The position numbers were made by a program, and so were the translations under genes. The notes under the pieces are model-generated. The model made no database searches, was not told the origin of the DNA, and saw only the letters and a program-made list of their open reading frames with translations. From Methyloceanibacter methanicus (GTDB lineage Bacteria; Pseudomonadota; Alphaproteobacteria; Rhizobiales; Methyloligellaceae): 64,000 nucleotides of DNA. Below, one piece after another: positions 5,698 to 45,017 of this stretch; positions within the stretch are counted from its first letter, which is position 1, and each line of letters begins with the position of its first letter. The DNA lies in assembly GCF_001723285.1 (NCBI RefSeq), contig NZ_LPWG01000002.1, forward strand, positions 62,001-126,000. Direction: 5' to 3'.

Positions 5698-6309
5698 CTA
5701 GGTGGAGACGGGGTTCGCCGGCTTGGTGACGCGGCGGAGCGTCAGATTGAAGCGCCCACCCTCATCGAGAAGACCGCTCGTTTTGGATAGCACGCGATCG
5801 ATGCCGTGATAGGCGAGCCGGTCCGCACCGCCCAAGACGACCACATCGCCGGACTGCAGCTCAAGCGTCCGCGACGGCGCCTTCCGCGTGGTACCGCCCA
5901 CGCGAAAGATCGCCGTATCGCCCAGCGACACGGACAGGACGGGCGCGGTGACGTCCTCCTCGTCGCGATCCTGATGCAGCCCCATCTTGGCCCCGCCACT
6001 GTAATAGTTGATGAGGCAGGCTTCCGGCGGGTGCGGGTAGTCCGCGAGCGCAGCCCAGAGCGCAAGAAGCCTTTGCGGTATCGCCGGCCACGGCGCGCCG
6101 GTTTCGGGATGCGTGGCCTGATAGCGGTAGCCGCGCGTCTTGTCCGTGACCCACCCCAACGAACCGGCATTGGTCATCCGGACCGACATGGGCGTGCCTG
6201 AGCGGGGCATGGTCGGAACGAACAAGGGCGCCTCGCCGACAATCGCGCGGACATCGCCGAGTAGCGCGGCCTGGGCCTGCGCGTTCAATTTCTTTGGGAA
6301 ATACAGCAT
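5698..6309 (-). CDS. alkB: AlkB-type Fe(II)/2-oxoglutarate dioxygenase (DNA/RNA alkylation repair)
   Basis: 203 residues on the minus strand. The metal-binding HxD is in LHQDRDEED, the distal His in YHGIDR, and the 2-oxoglutarate Arg motif in RFNLTLRRV. The substrate-lid region PMSVRMTNAGSLGWVTD matches E. coli AlkB-type demethylases, which oxidatively remove 1-methyladenine and 3-methylcytosine. It converges on grpE, with 12 bases between the stops. No ada gene is adjacent, so regulation by the adaptive response is not evident. Confidence 0.92.
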   Translation of the reverse strand: MLYFPKKLNAQAQAALLGDVRAIVGEAPLFVPTMPRSGTPMSVRMTNAGSLGWVTDKTRGYRYQATHPETGAPWPAIPQRLLALWAALADYPHPPEACLINYYSGGAKMGLHQDRDEEDVTAPVLSVSLGDTAIFRVGGTTRKAPSRTLELQSGDVVVLGGADRLAYHGIDRVLSKTSGLLDEGGRFNLTLRRVTKPANPVST

Positions 6310-6399
6310 GCGTCCTTTGCCGCCGGGGGCCCTCTCGCCTAGGGTCGCACTCTAGCGCTTACGCGCCCCGGCGGTAGAGCGTTTCCAGGGACGGATCTG

Positions 6400-7229
6400 A
6401 TGAGCGAAGCGACACCGGCCAATACCGACGGTTACATCCACAGCCGCGACGAGCAGGAATACGCGCGGTTGCGGAACCAGGCAGAGATGTGGCAGGGCGC
6501 GTCGGAGGCCCTGTTCGACGAAATCGGGCTCGCGCCCGGCATGTCCTGCCTCGACGTGGGCTCCGGACCGGGCTCGGTCATGCGGCTCATGGCGGACCGG
6601 GTCGGCGAGAAGGGCACCGTCACCGGACTGAGATCGACGGCAGTCTCGGGCGCCAGGCGCTCGCAGACCTGAAGACGGACGGCGGCGCTGACTTTCATCA
6701 GATTGAGGCGGATGTCCTGACAACCGAGGACCTGCCGGGGGCGCCCTTCGACCTGACCTATTGCCGGTTCTTTCTGATGCACATGCCCGACCCCGTCGCG
6801 ATTCTCGAGAAAATGCATCGCTGGACGAAGCCGGGCGGCGTGATCGCGGTGCAGGAGTTCGATTTCGGTGCCATGACCGTGGAGCCGATCTGCCCTGCCA
6901 TGACCGAGTTTTTCCGCCTGTTCGAGGGGGTTTTTCGCGGACATGGCCGCAACCTGCGGGCCGGGCGCCAACTGCCCGCCCAGTTCGAGGCCGCGGGCCT
7001 CGGCATCCCGGACGGAACGCGGGCCGAAGTGAAATTCCTCCCCATGAGTGGCATGGCGGCAATGTTAATCGGCGTTTACCAAGGACTTTTCGCCTCCGCC
7101 GTGGAACTTGGAATCGCCGACGACGCCCGCGCGGAAGCCTTCAAGAGGGAGATTGCGGAGGCCACCGCGGACGGCCGGTATTACTGCGTGACTCCAATCC
7201 TTATCGGGGCGTGGAGGCGCCTGGCGTGA
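6400..7229 (+). pseudogene. SAM-dependent class I methyltransferase, single frameshift
   Basis: The gene starts at ATG 6400. SAM motif I is CLDVGSGPGSVMRLMA. The frame breaks at about 6628: up to TGTVTG it is read in the first frame. From 6630 the reading continues one base off with EIDGSLGRQALADLK, FDLTYCRFFLMHMPDPV and KMHRWTKPGGVIAVQEFDF, ending at 7229. Restoring one base between 6627 and 6630 gives an intact protein of about 276 residues resembling UbiE/Methyltransf_11 enzymes. The substrate cannot be told from sequence. The conserved second half suggests a recent break or a base-calling error. It is divergent from alkB. Confidence 0.75.
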
Positions 7230-7266
7230 CAACCTGCGCCAACGATCGGATGCGACCCGTGTTCTC

Positions 7267-7295
7267 CTTGCGAGCCATAGGGCTGGCACCTATAT
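7267..7295 (+). promoter_or_regulatory. RpoH (sigma-32) type heat-shock promoter of dnaK
   Basis: CTTG at 7267-7270, an 18-base spacer, then CCTATAT at 7289-7295. This fits the alphaproteobacterial sigma-32 pattern CTTG-N17/18-CYTATNT closely. It lies 150 bases upstream of the dnaK ATG. Confidence 0.7.
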
Positions 7296-7445
7296 AACCG
7301 CGGAACCCCGCACGATTTTCCGCCGCGGGGCGCTGCGAAACAATTGGGAACCGGTTCGCGCCGCTTCGAGCGAAGCCAGGCGCGTCAGTCAATCCCGGGC
7401 GCCGCGTCAGGGCCCGGACGGTTTGCCAGAAAGAGAGGCTCGGAT

Positions 7446-9365
<1,920 letters not shown>

Positions 9366-36120: not shown

Positions 36121-36870
36121 ATGGGCGGCATTAGCACGGACCTCAGGGCGGGCCTAGCCTTTTGCACGCGGCTGCCTGTCACGGCCGCTGACGGTACCCG
36201 GCTTGCCGATGCCGCGTGGACACTTCCGGTCGCGGGCGCCCTCATCGGGCTGATCGGCGGCGTCTGTCTGTATGTGGGCATGGCGGTGGGCCTGCCGCCT
36301 TTCGCGGCGGCAACGCTCGCCGTCGCCGCCACGGCCCTGGCGACGGGCTGTCTGCACGAGGACGGGCTGGCCGACACGGCCGACGGCTTCGGCGGAGGAC
36401 GGGACCGGGCGCGCGTGCTCGAGATCATGCGCGACAGCCGCATCGGCACGTACGGCGTAATCGCCCTGATCGTCAGCTTTCTCTTGCGAATCGGGGCCCT
36501 TTCGAGCCTTGCCGCAGGGGGCGCGGGCTTGCCGGTGCTGGCGCTCATCGCCGCGCATACGGGGGCCCGGAGCGTCCTGCCGCTTTTCATGCGGGCGGTT
36601 CCCCGCGCCCGCGCCGACGGTCTATCGGCGAACGCGGGCCAGCCAAGCCCCGGCATGGCCGCCATTGCCATCGCCATTGCCGTCGTCGTCGCGATCGTCT
36701 GTCTTGGGCTCGGCCCGACCCTGGTCTCGGCACTCCTGGCCGCCGCCGCGCTCGCCCTACTCGCCCGCATGAGTATCCATAAGATCGGCGGCCAGACCGG
36801 GGACGTCCTGGGTGCCGCCGAACAGACCGGCGAAATCTCGATCCTGCTCACGGCAGCCGCGCTGCTCTAG
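36121..36870 (+). CDS. cobV: Adenosylcobinamide-GDP ribazoletransferase (cobalamin synthase)
   Basis: 249 residues, multi-pass membrane protein. The family motifs are LAFCTRLPV near the start and CLHEDGLADTADGFGGG with acidic metal-binding residues. RVLEIMRDSRIGTYGVIAL and the end GGQTGDVLGAAEQTGEI are also typical. It joins adenosylcobinamide-GDP and alpha-ribazole, the last step. It is called cobS in Salmonella. Confidence 0.96.
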   Translation: MGGISTDLRAGLAFCTRLPVTAADGTRLADAAWTLPVAGALIGLIGGVCLYVGMAVGLPPFAAATLAVAATALATGCLHEDGLADTADGFGGGRDRARVLEIMRDSRIGTYGVIALIVSFLLRIGALSSLAAGGAGLPVLALIAAHTGARSVLPLFMRAVPRARADGLSANAGQPSPGMAAIAIAIAVVVAIVCLGLGPTLVSALLAAAALALLARMSIHKIGGQTGDVLGAAEQTGEISILLTAAALL

Positions 36871-37013: not shown

Positions 37014-37295
37014 ATGCGTATTGCGATCGCCATTATCGTCTGTCTCGGCGTGTCGTGGGCCGCAGCCTCCCGCGCGAGCGCCGCACCCGTTCCCCTGACC
37101 GGAAACGCGGCGCATTCCATCGCCGAACACAGCGGCTCAATGGTCGCGACCGCCGCCAAGCGATCGCGCAACACCGTGAGGCGCAGCACCCGCAAATGCG
37201 GCTGGCAGTGCAAGCGCTATTGGCGGCCCTACCAGTATCGCTACTGGAAATTCTACTACCCCTATGGCGGCCCGCTCTTCTCGGCGGGGCGTTAG
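37014..37295 (+). CDS. Small secreted basic, Tyr-rich protein
   Basis: 93 residues from the ATG at 37014, with AGGAG nine bases upstream. A clear signal peptide (IAIAIIVCLGVSWAAASRASAA) is followed by a basic central part. The C-terminus is aromatic: KCGWQCKRYWRPYQYRYW, with two Cys that could form a disulfide. Short secreted Arg/Tyr-rich proteins of this type are common in Hyphomicrobiales; I know no function. Confidence 0.7.
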   Translation: MRIAIAIIVCLGVSWAAASRASAAPVPLTGNAAHSIAEHSGSMVATAAKRSRNTVRRSTRKCGWQCKRYWRPYQYRYWKFYYPYGGPLFSAGR

Positions 37296-37351: not shown

Positions 37352-39316
37352 GTGCGCCGCGTGACGCCCCCGACCCCCGCAATAACCGCCCGCGCGATCG
37401 CGCTTTTCGAGGCTGCCCGTGAGCGGCCGGGCGCGCCCCAGCCCATTCCCGAACGTCTCTTCCTCATCGATGTGGAACGGCAGATCGCGACCCTGATCGA
37501 GAACGGCGCGGTCGTGGCATCGTGGCCCGTCTCGACGGCGCGCAACGGCATTGGCGGCGCGAACAACTCCCTCAAGACGCCGCCAGGCTGGCACCGCATC
37601 GATGCGAAGATCGGGACGGGCGCAGGCGCGGGCACGGTGTTTTCCTCGCGCGAGCCCACCGGCGAAGTCTGGCAGGGCGAGCCTTGCGAGGCCGATCTCA
37701 TTCTCACGCGCATTCTGACGCTGGACGGCCTCGAAGAGGGCGTCAATCGGGGACCGGGCTGCGACTCGCGAGAGCGCTACATCTATATCCACGGCTCGAA
37801 TCACGAGGTGCTGATCGGACGGCCCGTGTCGTGCGGCTGCGTTCGCATGTCCAACGCCGACGTGACGGCGCTGTTCGACCGGGCCCGCGAGGGGGACTTC
37901 GTCCTGATCGTGCCCTCCGAGACGCGCGCGATCCCGGACCTTGCGTCGGGACGCTTTCACTATGCGGGCCTTGGCGGCTCGGGCATGAGCGCCATCGCCC
38001 AGTTCCAGGCCATGAAGGGCGGACGCGTCAGCGGCAGCGACCGGGCCTTCGACCAGGGCGAGCGAGCGGCCGTGCGGGCCCGGTTCGAAGCGCTTGGAAT
38101 CTCCGTGTTCCCGCAGGACGGCAGCGGGGTCGGCGAGGACTGCGCCGCTCTCGTCGTGTCCACAGCGGTGGAAGAAACGGTGCCCGACTTCGCCACGGCC
38201 CAAGCGCGCGGGGTGCCGGTTGTACATCGCTCCGAGATGCTGGCCCATTTCGTCGGCACCTACCGGTCGATCGCGGTGACGGGCACGAGCGGGAAGTCGA
38301 CCGTCACCGGCATGATTTTCGAGATCCTGCGCGGTATCGGCGCCGATCCCTCCGTAATCACGGGCGGGGACCTGCCCGCGCTGCAGGCACAAGGGCTGAT
38401 CGGCAACGCCTATGCGGGCGAGTCCGACCTGCTCGTGGTGGAAGCGGACGAAAGCGACGGCTCCCTGGTGCGCTACGCGCCCTCTATCGGCGTCGTGCTC
38501 AATCTCCAGCGCGACCACAAGGAGATGGACGAGGTCGCCGCCATGTTCGCCACGCTGCGAGCGCGGACGCGCGAATCGCTGGTCGTCGGCGATGATGCGA
38601 ATCTCGATGCGTTCGCGGGCGGCGCCATCCGCTTCGGTCTCAGCGAACGTGCCGATGTTCGCGCGACGGACGTGCAACACCATCCGAACGGTGCGAGGTT
38701 CCGCGTCGAAGGCGTCGGGTTCGAGATTCCCGTCCCGGGCCTCCACAACGTGACCAACGCGCTGGCAGCGATCGCCGCGTGCCGGGCCGCCGGTTTCCCG
38801 CTGGAGAGCATGGCTGCGCCACTCGCCGGATTCTCCGGCATCGGACGGCGGTTCCAGACCGTCGGCCGCGCCCGGGGCATCGAGGTCGTGGACGACTTCG
38901 CGCACAATGCGGAGAAGATCGCCGCGGCGATCCGAACGGCAAAGCTGCGGGGGCAGCGTGTGCTGGCGATCTACCAGCCGCACGGCTACGGCCCGACACG
39001 CTTCCTCTGGCAGGATTTCGTGCGGACGTTCTCGAGCGAGCTCTCCGCGCAGGACCGTCTGCTCATGCTTGAAGTCTTCTACGCGGGCGGCACGGCCACG
39101 CGGGATTTCTCCGCCGCCGATATCGTGCGCGAGATTGCCACGAAGGGCACCAACGCCTCCTTCGCGCCGTCGCGGGAATGGCTTATCGCCAGAATCGCAG
39201 ACGAAGCGCGTGAGGGTGATGTGGTGCTGGTCATGGGTGCGCGCGACCCGTCGCTCACGGGCTTTGCGCGCGACATTCTCGGCGCGCTCGAGGGCGGCGC
39301 AGCACGGCGCGCCTAG
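37352..39316 (+). CDS. Fusion of YkuD L,D-transpeptidase domain and Mur ligase (MurC/Mpl-like)
   Basis: 654 residues from a GTG at 37352 (a second GTG at 37361 is possible). Residues about 35-180 form a YkuD domain with IYIHGSNHEV (His147) and the catalytic motif SCGCVRMSN (Cys163). Residues about 200-645 form a Mur ligase. Its N-terminal part is HYAGLGGSGMSAIAQFQAMK, the P-loop VTGTSGKSTVTGMIFE (Lys315), then VVEADESDGSL and DDFAHNAEKIAAAI. No signal peptide is visible, so both domains should be cytosolic. The ligase resembles MurC and Mpl, which add Ala or recycled tripeptide to UDP-MurNAc. The transpeptidase could edit the donor or product peptide; that is inference. Confidence 0.85.
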   Translation: MRRVTPPTPAITARAIALFEAARERPGAPQPIPERLFLIDVERQIATLIENGAVVASWPVSTARNGIGGANNSLKTPPGWHRIDAKIGTGAGAGTVFSSREPTGEVWQGEPCEADLILTRILTLDGLEEGVNRGPGCDSRERYIYIHGSNHEVLIGRPVSCGCVRMSNADVTALFDRAREGDFVLIVPSETRAIPDLASGRFHYAGLGGSGMSAIAQFQAMKGGRVSGSDRAFDQGERAAVRARFEALGISVFPQDGSGVGEDCAALVVSTAVEETVPDFATAQARGVPVVHRSEMLAHFVGTYRSIAVTGTSGKSTVTGMIFEILRGIGADPSVITGGDLPALQAQGLIGNAYAGESDLLVVEADESDGSLVRYAPSIGVVLNLQRDHKEMDEVAAMFATLRARTRESLVVGDDANLDAFAGGAIRFGLSERADVRATDVQHHPNGARFRVEGVGFEIPVPGLHNVTNALAAIAACRAAGFPLESMAAPLAGFSGIGRRFQTVGRARGIEVVDDFAHNAEKIAAAIRTAKLRGQRVLAIYQPHGYGPTRFLWQDFVRTFSSELSAQDRLLMLEVFYAGGTATRDFSAADIVREIATKGTNASFAPSREWLIARIADEAREGDVVLVMGARDPSLTGFARDILGALEGGAARRA

Positions 39317-39325
39317 CCCGGCCGG

Positions 39326-42300
39326 CTAGTTGCCGAGAATCCCTGAGATGAAGTCGTCGACGCTATTGGCGGAGCGGCGGCGGCGCGGACGGGGCTCCGA
39401 GTAGCGCGGCGCGGGACTCGTCTCCGCAACGTCCGCCGAATACGGCACATTGAAGTACGCGGGGTTCTTGAAGAGTTTCGCCGCCATCTGGTTGTCAATG
39501 CCGTAGACGTCGCCGAATTCCTGAATCGACCCATAGCTGTCGGCAACGGCCGTATTGTAGGTGAGGTGGACCGGAATATTGCGGTTGAGCGCGATGACCT
39601 TGGTCTGGCCTTGCGCCCGCGCGAGCACGTCCTGGACCGTCCCCATGGACCAGCCCTTGTCCTCGCCGAGCAGCAAGGCGGCAAAGCGTGCCGGCTGATT
39701 GACGCGGATGCAGCCGTGACTCAGTGTCCGCGTCTGGCGCGAGAACAGCTCCTTCTGGGTCGTGTCGTGCATGTAGATGGCGTGACTGTTGGGGAAATTG
39801 AACTTGAACTGGCCCAGCACGTTGTGGGGCCCGGGATCCTGCGTGAACGTGTAGGTGTGAACGTTCGCGGTCTGCCAGTCCACCGCGTCGGCATCGACTG
39901 GCTTGCCCCCCTTGCTGACCGTGAGCCCATAGCGGCTCAACATCCTGTTTCTGGACTCTGGACCGCTGAACAGCCCGCCTGAGCGCCGGGGCCCTTTCAA
40001 TTTCGGAGCGATATCCTCTTTGACGATGGTCGGCGGAACCGTCCAATTGGGATTGAACACGATGTTCCGCATGGGCGCGGAGAAGAACGGCGTGGCGTAT
40101 TTGACCTGCCCGACGATCGATTTCTCCCGGTAGATTTCGCGGCCGCCCTTGAAGACCCGGAACTGGAACTCGGGAATGTTGTTCCAAACGTGGAAGCTAC
40201 CGAGATCCGACGGAAGCCAGCGCCAGCGCTCCATGTTGATGACGATGCGCTGGACGTTCCGGTCGTTGTCGGGATTGCGGCCAAGGCCCTGCGCCGTGTC
40301 GCGGGCATGCACGAGCGCGGCATGCAGCCGTTGGTATTGCTCCGATTGCGGATGAAGCGCGAGGAGCGCCTTGTCCGGCGTCTCGGACGCCGCCAGCCCG
40401 GTCAGCACGGTCTTCGGGTCGCGCGCCTTTGGATTGTAGTCGAACAGCTTGTGGGCTCGCGACGGAGTGAGCCGCCCGGTCTGGGCGTGGCGCGCGTATT
40501 TCAGAGCGGCGGCGGACAATGCGAGCTCGGCGTCCGCCCGCGCCTCGTCGGTTGCAAGGGCGGCGTTGGGGTCCGGCACCGCGTAAGCGCCGGCATCGAG
40601 CCCCCAATCGTCCGCGTCCTGGATCGTCGCGATGAGCACTTTGGCGCCGGACGTCAGGCCGTCCTCGGTGACCCAGAACGGTTCGTCGTCACGCTCGCCA
40701 TAGAGCGTCTTGAGGGCTTCCAAATCGGCGGCGGCGACCTTGGGCGCCGCGGGGCCCTCGAGCTTGGACCGGACCGACGCAATCACCGGGTCGACGGGCG
40801 GAGGCGGGGGCGGCCCAACATCGACCGCGTTGTCCGCCGGGGGCTCGTCTTCGGCGGCGGTACCGTCGTCCGGGACGAGCGCCGAGCCCGGACTGAGAGC
40901 GGCGACTTGGGTCTCCTCGACGTCAGGTTCTTCGCTGCCCGGCGGCGGCGACACATCCAGAACGACCGTCGCATTGTAGGCGCGTGGATCGGGCTTGGGC
41001 GCCGCTGCCGCAGGGGCATCGGCTGCGCGCGCGACGTCGGTCACATCCGCGGGCACCGCTGATTGAGCGGTGCTGCTCGGCGCCGAGGCCGGCGCGATCG
41101 AGGCCGTCGCCACAGGATCGGCTTCGGGCTCCGACACCACGTCGGACGCGGTCTTCGTGTCGGTCTCTGTGTCGGCTTCGGCTTTCGTCTCGGCTTCGGC
41201 CCCGTCCTTGACCCCAGATTCGTCCTTGGCGTCAACGCCGGTCTTGTTGGCCAGGCGGACCGCCTCCGGCTTCGGTTGCGGAGCGGGCGGTACTGGCCCG
41301 GCGTCGGCCGCCACTTCTGCGCTGTCGGCGTCAGCTTCAGCGCTTTCGGCCTCAGACGTGTCGGCGGCCTCCGTGGAGCCATCGGCTTCGGCCTTCGCCG
41401 CAAGCGCCGCCGCCGTGACCGCTGCAGCCGTGGCCGCGGCGGCCGTCCCGACGTCGGACGGGGAGGTCACGGCGATCTCGTCGGTCTTGTCCGCCAACGT
41501 CGCTTCGGCGGCATCGGACTCGTCCGACGCGGCTGCGGCGGACTTAGCATCCGCGGTTTTTTCGTCAGCTGTCTTCTCATCGGCGGTTTTGGCCCCGCCG
41601 GCGTCGCTTACGTCCGTCGCGGCCTCTTTGTCTGCGTCCTTGTTGTCAGCGCTCTCGCCGGTGCCCGCATCGGCCGCCTTGGTCTCGGTCGGCTCAGTCT
41701 CATTAGACTTTGCATCACCAGAACTGGCATCGCCAGAATTGGCATCGCTCGTCTCGGTCGCTTTTGCGTCGTCGCCGGTCGTTGCGTCGTCGCCCGTTTC
41801 GGCGTCAGCGGTCTTGGTCTCGCTCGCCTTGACATCACCAGACTTGGCATCGTCGGCTCTAGTGTCGGCGTTCGGCGCGGCATCCGAAGCCGCCGCCGTA
41901 TCGGCCCCATCGGTCGCGCTCGCGGTTTCGTCCGGCTTTGAATCCGACGAAGCCGTCTTGCTGTCGCCATCCGTCTCGGTGTCAGCTTCTGAATCGGCCG
42001 TCTTGGACCCGGACGACGTCTTGGATTCAGACGACGGCTCGGAGTCCATGTCCGCCACGGACTGGGACTCATCTTCGGAGTCAGCCGCGAGCTCCGTCTT
42101 GGACTCGGCTTTGGGATCCGCCTCGCCTGCGACCTCAGTCTCCGTTTCGGCCCGTGCCGTGCCGGTGTCCGCCGCCGAGGCAACTTCGTCGGCCGAAGAC
42201 GCATCGTCCTGCGCGTCGGCTGTCTTGGTATCGGCCAGTTCGGAATCGGGTGTTTCGGAGTCCGCCGTCTCGGTATCGGCCGTCTCGGTCTCCGCGGATT

Positions 42301-42784
42301 TGGTGTCTTGAGATGCCGTCTCTGCCGTGTCGGACTCGTCCGTCTTCGCCTCGTCAGCCTTGGACTCGTCAGCCTTGGACTCGTCAGCCTTGGACTCGTC
42401 AGCCTTGGCCTCATCAGCGTTCGCCTCGGCGGCCACGGACGGCGCCGGGTCCTCGTCCTTCGCCGCCGTGCGCCTGGGCGCCGGCAAGGCCAAGGCAACG
42501 CTTGCGGCCGACGTGGTGCCAACCCCGAGAACGGCATCGCTGTTCTTGGCGACCTCCGGCGAGACGGCCTTGGCGGAGACGGTCGCGAATACGCGATCCG
42601 GATTGCGGCTCGGTTGCACGGGCCGGGGCGCGCGATAGCGCTTGCGCTTAACTGCCGGCTTGCCGCCGAAAAGACCGGGCACGCGGAATTCGGCCGTCGC
42701 CTTGGACGGGGCCAAACCGGCGCCAGCCCCAAAAACCAAGAACGCCAGCGCCGTCAGCCCGACAATGGCGAATCGTCCACTCAT
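39326..42784 (-). CDS. YcbB/LdtD-like L,D-transpeptidase with very long acidic low-complexity region
   Basis: About 1152 residues from the ATG at 42784. The N-terminus FAIVGLTALAFLVFGAGAG is a signal peptide or membrane anchor. Residues about 100-600 are almost entirely Ala, Asp, Glu, Ser, Thr and Lys (KADES and TADSE-like repeats), probably an extended periplasmic linker. The scaffold and YkuD domains follow, with INMERWRWLP, the lid region, FPNSHAIYMHDT, and the active site LSHGCIRVNQPARFA (about Cys1025). LdtD-type enzymes make 3-3 crosslinks in peptidoglycan. The linker makes it about twice normal length. It converges on the YkuD-Mur ligase gene, 9 bases apart. Confidence 0.88.
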   Translation of the reverse strand: MSGRFAIVGLTALAFLVFGAGAGLAPSKATAEFRVPGLFGGKPAVKRKRYRAPRPVQPSRNPDRVFATVSAKAVSPEVAKNSDAVLGVGTTSAASVALALPAPRRTAAKDEDPAPSVAAEANADEAKADESKADESKADESKADEAKTDESDTAETASQDTKSAETETADTETADSETPDSELADTKTADAQDDASSADEVASAADTGTARAETETEVAGEADPKAESKTELAADSEDESQSVADMDSEPSSESKTSSGSKTADSEADTETDGDSKTASSDSKPDETASATDGADTAAASDAAPNADTRADDAKSGDVKASETKTADAETGDDATTGDDAKATETSDANSGDASSGDAKSNETEPTETKAADAGTGESADNKDADKEAATDVSDAGGAKTADEKTADEKTADAKSAAAASDESDAAEATLADKTDEIAVTSPSDVGTAAAATAAAVTAAALAAKAEADGSTEAADTSEAESAEADADSAEVAADAGPVPPAPQPKPEAVRLANKTGVDAKDESGVKDGAEAETKAEADTETDTKTASDVVSEPEADPVATASIAPASAPSSTAQSAVPADVTDVARAADAPAAAAPKPDPRAYNATVVLDVSPPPGSEEPDVEETQVAALSPGSALVPDDGTAAEDEPPADNAVDVGPPPPPPVDPVIASVRSKLEGPAAPKVAAADLEALKTLYGERDDEPFWVTEDGLTSGAKVLIATIQDADDWGLDAGAYAVPDPNAALATDEARADAELALSAAALKYARHAQTGRLTPSRAHKLFDYNPKARDPKTVLTGLAASETPDKALLALHPQSEQYQRLHAALVHARDTAQGLGRNPDNDRNVQRIVINMERWRWLPSDLGSFHVWNNIPEFQFRVFKGGREIYREKSIVGQVKYATPFFSAPMRNIVFNPNWTVPPTIVKEDIAPKLKGPRRSGGLFSGPESRNRMLSRYGLTVSKGGKPVDADAVDWQTANVHTYTFTQDPGPHNVLGQFKFNFPNSHAIYMHDTTQKELFSRQTRTLSHGCIRVNQPARFAALLLGEDKGWSMGTVQDVLARAQGQTKVIALNRNIPVHLTYNTAVADSYGSIQEFGDVYGIDNQMAAKLFKNPAYFNVPYSADVAETSPAPRYSEPRPRRRRSANSVDDFISGILGN
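42346..42421. repeat. 15-bp tandem repeat coding KADES units
   Basis: About four to five direct copies of GGACTCGTCAGCCTT (plus strand), with one or two changes in the outer copies. On the minus strand they code for Lys-Ala-Asp-Glu-Ser in the L,D-transpeptidase linker. This is a likely site of copy-number change by slippage. Confidence 0.8.
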
Positions 42785-43241
42785 TCGTCGCCCCTCAAAC
42801 CCGCCGCACATCATCCCTTGGTGTAGACTTTCCCATCGTGATTTTGGAGAGGATCGCGCAAGAGCCTAAACATAATGGCAAAACAGGGCAGTTCCTTGGC
42901 CTCGGGAAACACAACCCATCACAAGGACGCCAGCGTCGCATCTTTTTGACGGTTTCGCGACCATGATTGTGGCTGCTCCGATAGTCGAGCTAAGGACTTC
43001 ACGGCCAACCTGCCTGAAAAATGGGCATCTGCGCCGATTTGACCCGGTCTTTCTGCCGGCCTTGATTTGATCGATGCAGGCCTTGATGCAATAATTCCGG
43101 CTATCACAGCACTTCTGACGTCTTGAGAGCGCTGCCGCCGCGGCGCGCTGAGCCTAGAAAAGTCGGCCCCATTCTTGCTTACATCTTGGACCAGGCGCTG
43201 TCGTCAGACTGAAACCTTCATTCCAACTGAGGCGATAACAC
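42785..43241. other. 457-bp intergenic region before asnO
   Basis: Divergent spacer, less G+C-rich than the rest of the window. I find no gene in it. It holds a promoter candidate for asnO (listed separately) and short repeats of TTGAT around 43062-43087. Being upstream of both a cell-wall enzyme and an osmolyte operon, it is a plausible target for osmotic control. Confidence 0.6.
43067..43095 (+). promoter_or_regulatory. Candidate promoter of the NAGGN operon
   Basis: TTGATC at 43067-43072, a 17-base spacer and AATAAT at 43090-43095, about 146 bases before the asnO ATG. The match is moderate and the sigma factor is uncertain. Confidence 0.35.
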
Positions 43242-45017
43242 ATGTGCGGATTGTGCGGCGAGATCACGTTTGACGGCTCGCCCGCGTCGGTCGAAGCCAT
43301 GGACGCCATGACCTGCTCGATGGTTCCGCGGGGGCCCGACGGGGGCGGAATCGTGTCCCGCGGCACGTTCGCCTTCGGCCATCGGCGCCTCAAGATCATC
43401 GATCTGTCGGAGCGCGGCCAGCAGCCCATGGTCGATTCCGAACTCGGTCTCACGCTCGTCTTCAATGGCTGCATCTACAATCACAAGGATCTGCGGACCG
43501 AGCTCGAAGCACAGGGCTACCGGTTCTTTTCGACAAGCGACACGGAAGTCGTCCTAAAAGCCTGGCACGCCTGGGGTCCCGAGGCGCCGAAGCGCTTCAA
43601 CGGCATGTTCGCCTTCGTGGTCTACGAGCGCGACACGGGCCGCGTGGCCATGGGCCGCGACCGGCTCGGCATCAAGCCGCTCTACTACACGCTGAACGAC
43701 AAGCGCCTCCGTTTCGCGTCGACGCTTCCTGCGCTCGTCGCCGCGGGCGACGTGGACACGGCCCTCGATCCGGTGGGCCTCGCCCACTACATGACGTTTC
43801 ATGCGGTCGTACCGCCGCCGCACACGATCCTGCGCGGGGTGCGCAAGCTGCCGCCCGCGACGCTGCGTCTGATCGAGCCCGACGGCAGCTTCAAGGACAT
43901 CCAATACTGGGACCTCCGGTTCGAGCGCTCGGCCGAGGATCTGGCGATCAGCCATGCCGAATGGAAGGATCGCGTCGGTGCAGCGCTGCGCCGGGCGGTC
44001 GACAGGCGGATGATCGCCGACGTTCCGGTGGGCGTGCTGCTTTCGGGCGGCGTCGATTCCAGCCTGATCGTGGGCCTTTTGGCCGAGGCCGGCCAGCAGC
44101 ACCTCAAGACCTTCTCGATCGGCTTCGAAGCCGCGCATGGCGAAGCGGGCGACGAGTTTCAATATTCGGACATCATCGCAGAGCATTTCGGCACCGACCA
44201 CACCAAGATCATGATCCCGACGGAGCACATGCTCGAGGCCCTGCCGGACACGATCGGTGCCATGTCCGAGCCCATGGTGTCCTACGATAATGTGGGCTTT
44301 TACCTTCTCTCCCGCGAAGTGGCGAAGCATGTGAAGGTCGTGCAGAGCGGCCAAGGCGCCGACGAGGTGTTCGCCGGCTACCACTGGTATCCGAAGCTTG
44401 CCACCTCGAACGACGTGCTGACCGATTACAGGGCGCTGTTCTTCGACCGGGGACGCGAAAAGCTCGCCACCCATCTCAGCGAGGTCTGGATGGCCGAGGA
44501 GGACGAGCCGGCGCGCCTGGTCGAAGCCCACCTCATGAAAGAGGGCGCCGAAACGCCGCTGGACCGCGCCTTGCGCATCGATACCACGGTGATGCTCGTC
44601 GACGATCCGGTGAAGCGCGTCGACAACATGACGATGGCCTGGGGGCTCGAGGCCCGGGTGCCGTTCCTGGATCATGAGCTCGTGGAACTTGCCGCGCGCG
44701 TGCCGCCGGAAATGAAGCTCAAGGACGAAGGCAAGGGCGTGCTCAAAGATGTGGCGCGGGATGTCATTCCCTCGTCGGTGATCGACCGGCCGAAGGGGTA
44801 TTTCCCCGTGCCGGCGCTGAAATATATCGACGGCCCCGTGCTGGACATGACGCGCGACGCGCTGTCCTCCCGGGCGCAAAACGAGCGGGGCCTGTTCCGG
44901 TCCGAATATCTCGGCCGTCTGTTTGCCGACCCGAAAGCGCACATTACCCCCTTACGCGGATCGGAACTTTGGCAGTGTGCGTTGTTGGAGCTCTGGCTTC
45001 AGACCCACAACCTCTAG
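43242..45017 (+). CDS. asnO: N-acetylglutaminylglutamine amidotransferase (asparagine-synthase-like)
   Basis: 591 residues. The class II glutaminase domain starts MCGLCGEITFDG (nucleophile Cys2) and has RGPDGGG and LVFNGCIYNHKDLR. The synthetase domain has the PP-loop LLSGGVDSSLIVGLLAEAG and QGADEVFAGYHWYP. This group amidates the C-terminus of N-acetylglutaminylglutamine, giving the osmoprotectant NAGGN. The ngg gene and an M42 peptidase directly downstream make the assignment firm against ordinary asparagine synthase. Confidence 0.92.
   Translation: MCGLCGEITFDGSPASVEAMDAMTCSMVPRGPDGGGIVSRGTFAFGHRRLKIIDLSERGQQPMVDSELGLTLVFNGCIYNHKDLRTELEAQGYRFFSTSDTEVVLKAWHAWGPEAPKRFNGMFAFVVYERDTGRVAMGRDRLGIKPLYYTLNDKRLRFASTLPALVAAGDVDTALDPVGLAHYMTFHAVVPPPHTILRGVRKLPPATLRLIEPDGSFKDIQYWDLRFERSAEDLAISHAEWKDRVGAALRRAVDRRMIADVPVGVLLSGGVDSSLIVGLLAEAGQQHLKTFSIGFEAAHGEAGDEFQYSDIIAEHFGTDHTKIMIPTEHMLEALPDTIGAMSEPMVSYDNVGFYLLSREVAKHVKVVQSGQGADEVFAGYHWYPKLATSNDVLTDYRALFFDRGREKLATHLSEVWMAEEDEPARLVEAHLMKEGAETPLDRALRIDTTVMLVDDPVKRVDNMTMAWGLEARVPFLDHELVELAARVPPEMKLKDEGKGVLKDVARDVIPSSVIDRPKGYFPVPALKYIDGPVLDMTRDALSSRAQNERGLFRSEYLGRLFADPKAHITPLRGSELWQCALLELWLQTHNL

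Follow-up and report, generated by a model that had tools for sequence, protein, structure and literature searches.

A putative YkuD L,D-carboxypeptidase joined to a MurC-like ligase in Methyloceanibacter is a candidate enzyme of peptidoglycan recycling

Introduction

The closest described systems to the gene considered here are those of Escherichia coli and Acinetobacter baumannii. In E. coli, LdcA, a serine peptidase of family S66, and Mpl act in two steps, in which the tetrapeptide is taken to the tripeptide and the tripeptide is placed onto UDP-MurNAc. ElsL (LdtK) of A. baumannii is, according to the available portions of the reports on it, a cytosolic, Cys138-dependent L,D-carboxypeptidase, which is selective as a carboxypeptidase and, when purified, cleaves disaccharide tetrapeptide (PMC8649774), and which these reports set apart from the canonical transpeptidases (PMC8649774, PMC8630537). 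ElsL works with a separate Mpl, and its loss leads to reuse of tetrapeptides (PMC8649774, PMC8630537); without ElsL, the tetrapeptides reused by Mpl give rise to precursors that the PBPs cannot use as donors (PMC8649774, in the text available). As for alphaproteobacteria, the accessible parts of work on Agrobacterium and Caulobacter report that homologues of LdcA and Mpl are missing, in part together with an accumulation of tetrapeptides, and conclude that there is no direct peptide reuse; these models are stated or suggested to degrade the peptide instead (PMC9790009, PMC13046382). Mpl homologues have been noted elsewhere in Caulobacteraceae (PMC11980594, in part).

We focus here on a gene of Methyloceanibacter methanicus, whose genus comprises marine methylotrophs, located in a window of 64,000 nucleotides of contig NZ_LPWG01000002.1, whose product combines an ElsL-like YkuD domain with a MurC-like ligase. 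First of all, the YkuD half shares with Acinetobacter ElsL the subfamily (by model and by tree), the predicted cytosolic location, the catalytic Cys and presumably the reaction; unlike that ElsL, it is fused to a ligase, the partner ligase is not a canonical Mpl, and the host genus is alphaproteobacterial. Second, the two presumed steps are the same as those of LdcA and Mpl in E. coli, whereas a YkuD cysteine domain would replace LdcA, the ligase belongs to a third clade, and both would act in one polypeptide. Third, free ligases of that third clade lie beside LdcA in other alphaproteobacteria and presumably serve the same partner reaction; unlike the fusion, they are paired with LdcA, in most cases encoded by a gene of its own next to theirs, and we found no published function for them. 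Finally, a MurC-Ddl fusion is known from Chlamydia. It also joins a Mur-type ligase to a pathway neighbour (models NF011171 and PRK14573), with another partner and at another step.

Neither the reactions nor the ElsL class nor the Mur ligase fold is new. In the open-access literature, we found no report of a fusion of YkuD with a Mur ligase, of an LdcA-linked MurC-like clade in alphaproteobacteria, or of peptidoglycan in Methyloceanibacter.

The fusion gene

The gene is a single open frame that encodes YkuD followed by a complete Mur ligase, as the original prediction from the DNA had it, with His147, Cys163 and Lys315 at the residues it had named (Table 1). Pfam assigns YkuD (36-186), Mur_ligase (202-304), Mur_ligase_M (309-477) and Mur_ligase_C (499-631) to the 654-residue protein, all above their gathering scores. 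The prediction had named a start further upstream, adding a signal peptide, as a reason to abandon it. None was found, judging by an in-frame stop 11 codons 5' of the GTG start and by N-terminal hydropathy, whose 15-residue mean peaks at 1.03 within the first 60 residues, compared with 2.4-2.5 in two neighbours of the secreted type. The first 60 residues are also non-hydrophobic in ten relatives. The protein is thus predicted to be cytosolic, and it has neither the signal peptide nor the membrane anchor of a periplasmic L,D-transpeptidase. It had also been argued that L,D-transpeptidases work outside the membrane, which is true, but the YkuD family includes a known class of cytosolic carboxypeptidases, and the cytosolic location is therefore not surprising in itself. 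The full-length structure model (pLDDT 73.9, pTM 0.59) is of too low a confidence for the relative position of the two active sites to be read from it, and it has no bearing on channelling.

Table 1. The fusion gene, its domains and presumed active-site residues, and two flanking genes (window coordinates)
Feature	Position	Strand	Evidence or remark
cobS (cobalamin synthase), upstream neighbour, outside the function	36121..36870	+	upstream in 12/13 genomes with the fusion locus
Fusion gene: ElsL-like YkuD L,D-carboxypeptidase domain (putative) and MurC-like UDP-MurNAc:peptide ligase (putative)	37352..39316	+	GTG start, 654 aa
YkuD / ElsL-like domain, residues 36-186	37457..37909	+	PF03734 E 8.8e-19; NF040925 ElsL E 5.3e-39 over residues 38-186
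His147, presumed catalytic His of the YkuD site	37790..37792	+	sequence; invariant in 19-row alignment
Cys163, presumed catalytic Cys, counterpart of ElsL Cys138	37838..37840	+	sequence; invariant in 19-row alignment
Mur ligase half, three domains, residues 202-632	37955..39247	+	PF01225, PF08245, PF02875
P-loop GTSGKS with Lys315 (codon 38294-38296)	38282..38299	+	sequence
YcbB/LdtD-type periplasmic L,D-transpeptidase (Scaffold and YkuD), convergent neighbour, not part of the fusion	39326..42814	-	

Proposed function

We consider it likely that the fusion serves peptidoglycan recycling as a bifunctional cytosolic enzyme, which would take D-Ala off recycled tetrapeptide and join the resulting tripeptide to UDP-MurNAc; the two enzymatic activities, the ligase substrate and possible channelling between the sites are our inferences. 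Muropeptides would be imported via AmpG, and an amidase of the AmpD type would free the peptide. The ElsL-like domain, acting as an L,D-carboxypeptidase through His147 and Cys163, would then strip the terminal D-Ala from the tetrapeptide, and the ligase half would attach the tripeptide to UDP-MurNAc. The fusion would in this way stand in for both LdcA and Mpl, the ElsL domain for the former and the third-clade MurC-like ligase for the latter, and the joining of the two may ensure that trimming precedes ligation, at a fixed ratio, and that dead-end UDP-MurNAc-tetrapeptide is avoided. AmpG exceeds its model cut-off in all seven Methyloceanibacter genomes searched and in none of five sister-genus genomes that carry LdcA and the ligase, while Amidase_2 (the AmpD family) occurs in 17 of the 17 genomes tested. 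The original prediction placed the YkuD half on recycled muropeptides or UDP-linked precursors, where it would exchange or trim D-amino acids. Trimming of D-Ala before ligation is in line with the ElsL family match, the tree and the replacement of LdcA; exchange of D-amino acids is unsupported, ElsL having acted as a selective carboxypeptidase (PMC8649774, in the text available).

A more ambitious version of this proposal, which we put forward tentatively and would not yet favour, has two parts taken together. The protein would couple trimming to ligation, either by handing the tripeptide from the YkuD site on to that of the ligase or by editing any misligated UDP-MurNAc-tetrapeptide in situ, and the ligase would represent a third, independently evolved family of murein-peptide ligases, hidden as a second MurC, that gives many alphaproteobacteria direct peptide recycling. 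The fusion offers a simple system in which to ask whether trimming and ligation are physically coupled.

The order of the two steps could also be reversed, with the YkuD domain mainly proofreading after ligation by cutting D-Ala from UDP-MurNAc-tetrapeptide in the manner of an editing domain. Mpl enzymes take tetrapeptides at a low rate (PMC3060825, in the part available), and the UDP-MurNAc-tetrapeptide product is described as toxic in the accessible text of PMC8649774, an outcome that a fused editing site would prevent. Against this, the activity of purified ElsL on disaccharide tetrapeptide in the same text makes a UDP-linked substrate unnecessary, and the relatives have LdcA as a protein of its own. 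We therefore regard proofreading as the main role as unlikely, and trimming before ligation remains the reading that we prefer.

The ligase half and its clade

The ligase half scores 310.4 bits with the MurC model TIGR01082, below its cut-off of 335.1, and 100.5 bits with the Mpl model TIGR01081, far below its cut-off of 388.7; the source genome's own MurC reaches 482 bits, above the cut-off. By fold, MurC (4hv4, Z 34.5) ranks ahead of Mpl (3hn7, Z 28.6), and identity to E. coli Mpl is about 28%. In a tree of 78 ligases, the 11 that are fused fall together with 28 free ones and the 5 from sister genera on one side of a branch with support 99, apart from 18 MurC and 14 Mpl sequences, and support for this clade is 100 after omission of the long branches L206 and L021; the tree includes L202 and uses corrected reading frames for L191, L192, L199 and L204. 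The description of this half as MurC/Mpl-like thus stands for the fold, but the tree sets the clade apart from both families.

Residues of the presumed peptide pocket carry the comparison further. Arg377 and Arg380 of Haemophilus influenzae MurC are given as L-Ala-binding (PMC3060825, in the part available); at these positions, the fusion has Gly and Pro, and Arg is found in none of the 44 clade members and in all 18 MurC sequences. The position of MurC Tyr346 is Phe in 43 of the 44, as it is in 14/14 Mpl. With Mpl (TIGR01081; 3hn7, 3eag), the fusion ligase shares the Mur ligase fold and a Phe-Ala-His in the C-domain (DDFAH). Unlike Mpl, it lies on a separate branch and lacks both the (S/T)AFFDKRSK motif and the Tyr of EADEY, which are absent from 44/44 clade members and present in 14/14 Mpl. 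The P-loop Lys is invariant in all 44. Lys390, Lys522, Arg631 and Asp632 are specific to the clade and are candidate peptide-binding residues. The clade thus appears to be neither MurC, by its predicted pocket, nor Mpl, by descent; likeness of the peptide pocket to that of Mpl draws no support from the scores, which favour MurC, or from the missing Mpl motif and Tyr.

The relation of the fused ligases to those of the sister genera bears on the origin of the gene. A tree that unites these two groups in a single clade is rejected (p-AU 0.004). A plain in-place exchange, in which ElsL took the place of LdcA next to the ligase native to the family, is therefore not supported. The gene may have been acquired whole, already fused, or fast change on its stem may account for its position.

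Coupling of the ligase with LdcA or ElsL

Free ligases of the clade, called at E values of 6.6e-78 or below (the next match being at 1.7e-64), were found in 27 of 240 alphaproteobacterial genomes, the source genome not being counted. We compared them within a set of 80 genomes, which consists of the 27 with a free ligase, 7 of Methyloceanibacter, 7 from elsewhere in the order and 39 from elsewhere in the class; these last 46 were selected by hand at intervals along the genome lists, at a completeness of at least 90%, and were chosen before the LdcA search. LdcA-family S66 peptidases (PF02016) occur in 27/27 of the genomes with a free ligase versus 2/46 of the others (0/7 in the order, 2/39 in the class; Fisher p 5e-18). 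The two exceptions (G037 and G141), which are still counted in the 2/46, scored nothing and 49 bits, respectively, with E. coli LdcA and seem to belong to a different S66 subfamily. LdcA adjoins the free ligase in 20 of the 27, on the same contig and within 712 bases (11 divergent, 9 on the same strand), and lies on another contig in the other 7. In the family of the source genome, five genomes of two other genera have a free ligase, and in all five, an LdcA frame stands head-to-head with it, its start 7-81 bases away.

In Methyloceanibacter, on the other hand, PF02016 was found in none of the seven genomes, all of which carry the ElsL fusion. The ElsL family is confined to these seven within the set (0/73 others), and canonical Mpl exceeds its cut-off in none of the 80, the source genome included. 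The free ligase thus goes with LdcA, and the genus that lacks LdcA has a fused ElsL, so that the partner of the ligase is LdcA or else ElsL. The fusion acts here as a 'Rosetta stone', linking a ligase of unassigned substrate to a carboxypeptidase of known type, and together with the LdcA neighbourhoods, it indicates the probable role of the ligase; from this gene coupling, the substrate is probably the tripeptide, ligated onto UDP-MurNAc. It also presents a case in which one class of L,D-carboxypeptidase would be replaced by an unrelated one.

The relatives probably point to an overlooked and misnamed third murein-peptide ligase in other alphaproteobacteria. One free clade member (L004, 1498-2865) scores 336.9 bits, above the NCBIfam MurC cut-off of 335.1, and some free members are therefore probably misnamed as a second MurC. 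If the proposal is true, a working peptide loop exists in part of the class (27/240 sampled) and has been masked by automatic names.

The top curated model, the first-ranked fold and the score of L004 all speak for a literal second MurC, adding L-Ala, with the YkuD domain as a passenger or regulator. This reading is nonetheless very unlikely, given that the genome already has its own MurC, that both L-Ala-binding arginines are missing from the whole clade, that coupling with LdcA is complete among the 27 genomes, and that both halves are under purifying selection with their catalytic residues kept.

Outside this set, canonical Mpl is above its cut-off in 10 of 11 other Pseudomonadota genomes with a free ElsL, and no ligase was found beside a free ElsL in the flanks examined at nine Verrucomicrobia loci. 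Three Verrucomicrobia with a free ElsL (L201-L203) have an Mpl-like ligase just below the Mpl cut-off (359-377 bits), branching beside canonical Mpl. In a MAG labelled Planctomycetota (NORP49, L072), a ligase of the clade and LdcA are neighbours on the same strand, at 5977-7356 and 7392-8276; the clade is otherwise alphaproteobacterial in our sample, and the pair reflects transfer or misbinning.

The YkuD half

The ElsL model NF040925 gives the YkuD half 133.6 bits (E 5e-39), compared with 24.5 bits for the best L,D-transpeptidase model, although this is half of the 270 bits that NF040925 sets as its cut-off. That model is of the 'exception' type, and none of 80 Pseudomonadota genomes with an ElsL-type match exceeds its cut-off; we therefore name the domain ElsL-like rather than a member of NF040925. 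What it has in common with ElsL is a YkuD domain with catalytic His and Cys, a predicted cytosolic location and its grouping in the tree, while its score falls short of the model. In a cleaned tree of 51 YkuD domains, rooted on E. coli LdtB and LdtE, the fused halves form one clade (100/99), to which the nearest group is ElsL of Verrucomicrobia (96/82). L077, which is not ElsL, and a poorly trimmed segment of LdtD from the window were removed from this tree, and L175 has no row; an earlier drawing, which contained two bad rows, had set LdtB and LdtE apart on a 100/100 branch. Identity between the fused domain and the free ElsL domains compared is 37-58%.

Modelled alone (pLDDT 72.5), the YkuD half takes the YkuD fold, matching Bacillus subtilis YkuD (4a1i) with Z 9.6 and an rmsd of 2.8 over 102 aligned residues; Helicobacter pylori Csd6 (Z 9.1) and Campylobacter jejuni Pgp2 (Z 8.7) stand in the same list of matches. 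A profile search of the PDB matched seven sequences, none of them a solved structure named as an ElsL.

The domain thus appears not to be an ordinary L,D-transpeptidase, and it groups with ElsL. That it could be a true L,D-transpeptidase or an exchanger of D-amino acids, working in the cytosol on UDP-linked precursors, is highly improbable: the fold is common to L,D-transpeptidases, and the catalytic His and Cys are kept, but the transpeptidase models reach at most 24.5 bits, the tree places the domain with ElsL and away from LdtB and LdtE, and ElsL itself is not a canonical transpeptidase in the available text of PMC8649774 and PMC8630537. An L,D-carboxypeptidase of the ElsL kind is the reading that we retain.

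Conservation of the fusion and its neighbourhood

The 654-residue frame is a real fusion. The original prediction had suggested a search for the same domain order elsewhere, and this finds the fusion in all 17 Methyloceanibacter genomes, in a single frame in 16 of them, and, in a survey of 30 genomes of the family, in that genus only. Among 61 genomes of the order, a full-length match was seen in the source genome and in one more of the same genus only. The Methyloceanibacter-type loci in GTDB contigs are all full length (10/10); these ten relatives, at 70-85% identity, come from Methyloceanibacter species and from MAGs of Hyphomicrobiaceae or unnamed Alphaproteobacteria, and include two named strains, M. 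marginalis R-67177 and M. superfactus R-67175. Against the ten, dN/dS ranges from 0.13 to 0.28 in the YkuD half and from 0.08 to 0.18 in the ligase half, and purifying selection acts on both halves. A 661-residue open frame at L025 was considered as a second fusion and rejected, its first part not being YkuD.

The fear that two adjacent genes had been joined by a sequence error, as the prediction had itself raised, or by one of assembly, for which the one genus genome with its halves in different frames (G312) could be cited, has next to no chance of being right, given the single frame in 16/17 genomes and 10/10 loci, the two named strains among them, and a G312 ligase half that, read alone, would begin at residue 212, without its first nucleotide-binding segment. 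The two frame changes of G312 (locus L146, at about 6700-6840) lie in the linker and are a sequencing error or a recent split.

Around the fusion, the YcbB-type L,D-transpeptidase gene faces it in 14/14 loci from 13 genomes; the copy in the window has several hundred acidic, repetitive residues rich in Lys, Ser, Thr, Asp and Glu before its scaffold domain. Between cobS and the fusion lies a small open reading frame (37014-37295, +) with a hydrophobic N-terminus (hydropathy 2.5), found in 10 of the 13 genomes with the fusion locus. Further downstream, at 43242-45017 (+), is an osmolyte gene, that of N-acetylglutaminylglutamine amidotransferase (TIGR03104, 987 bits).
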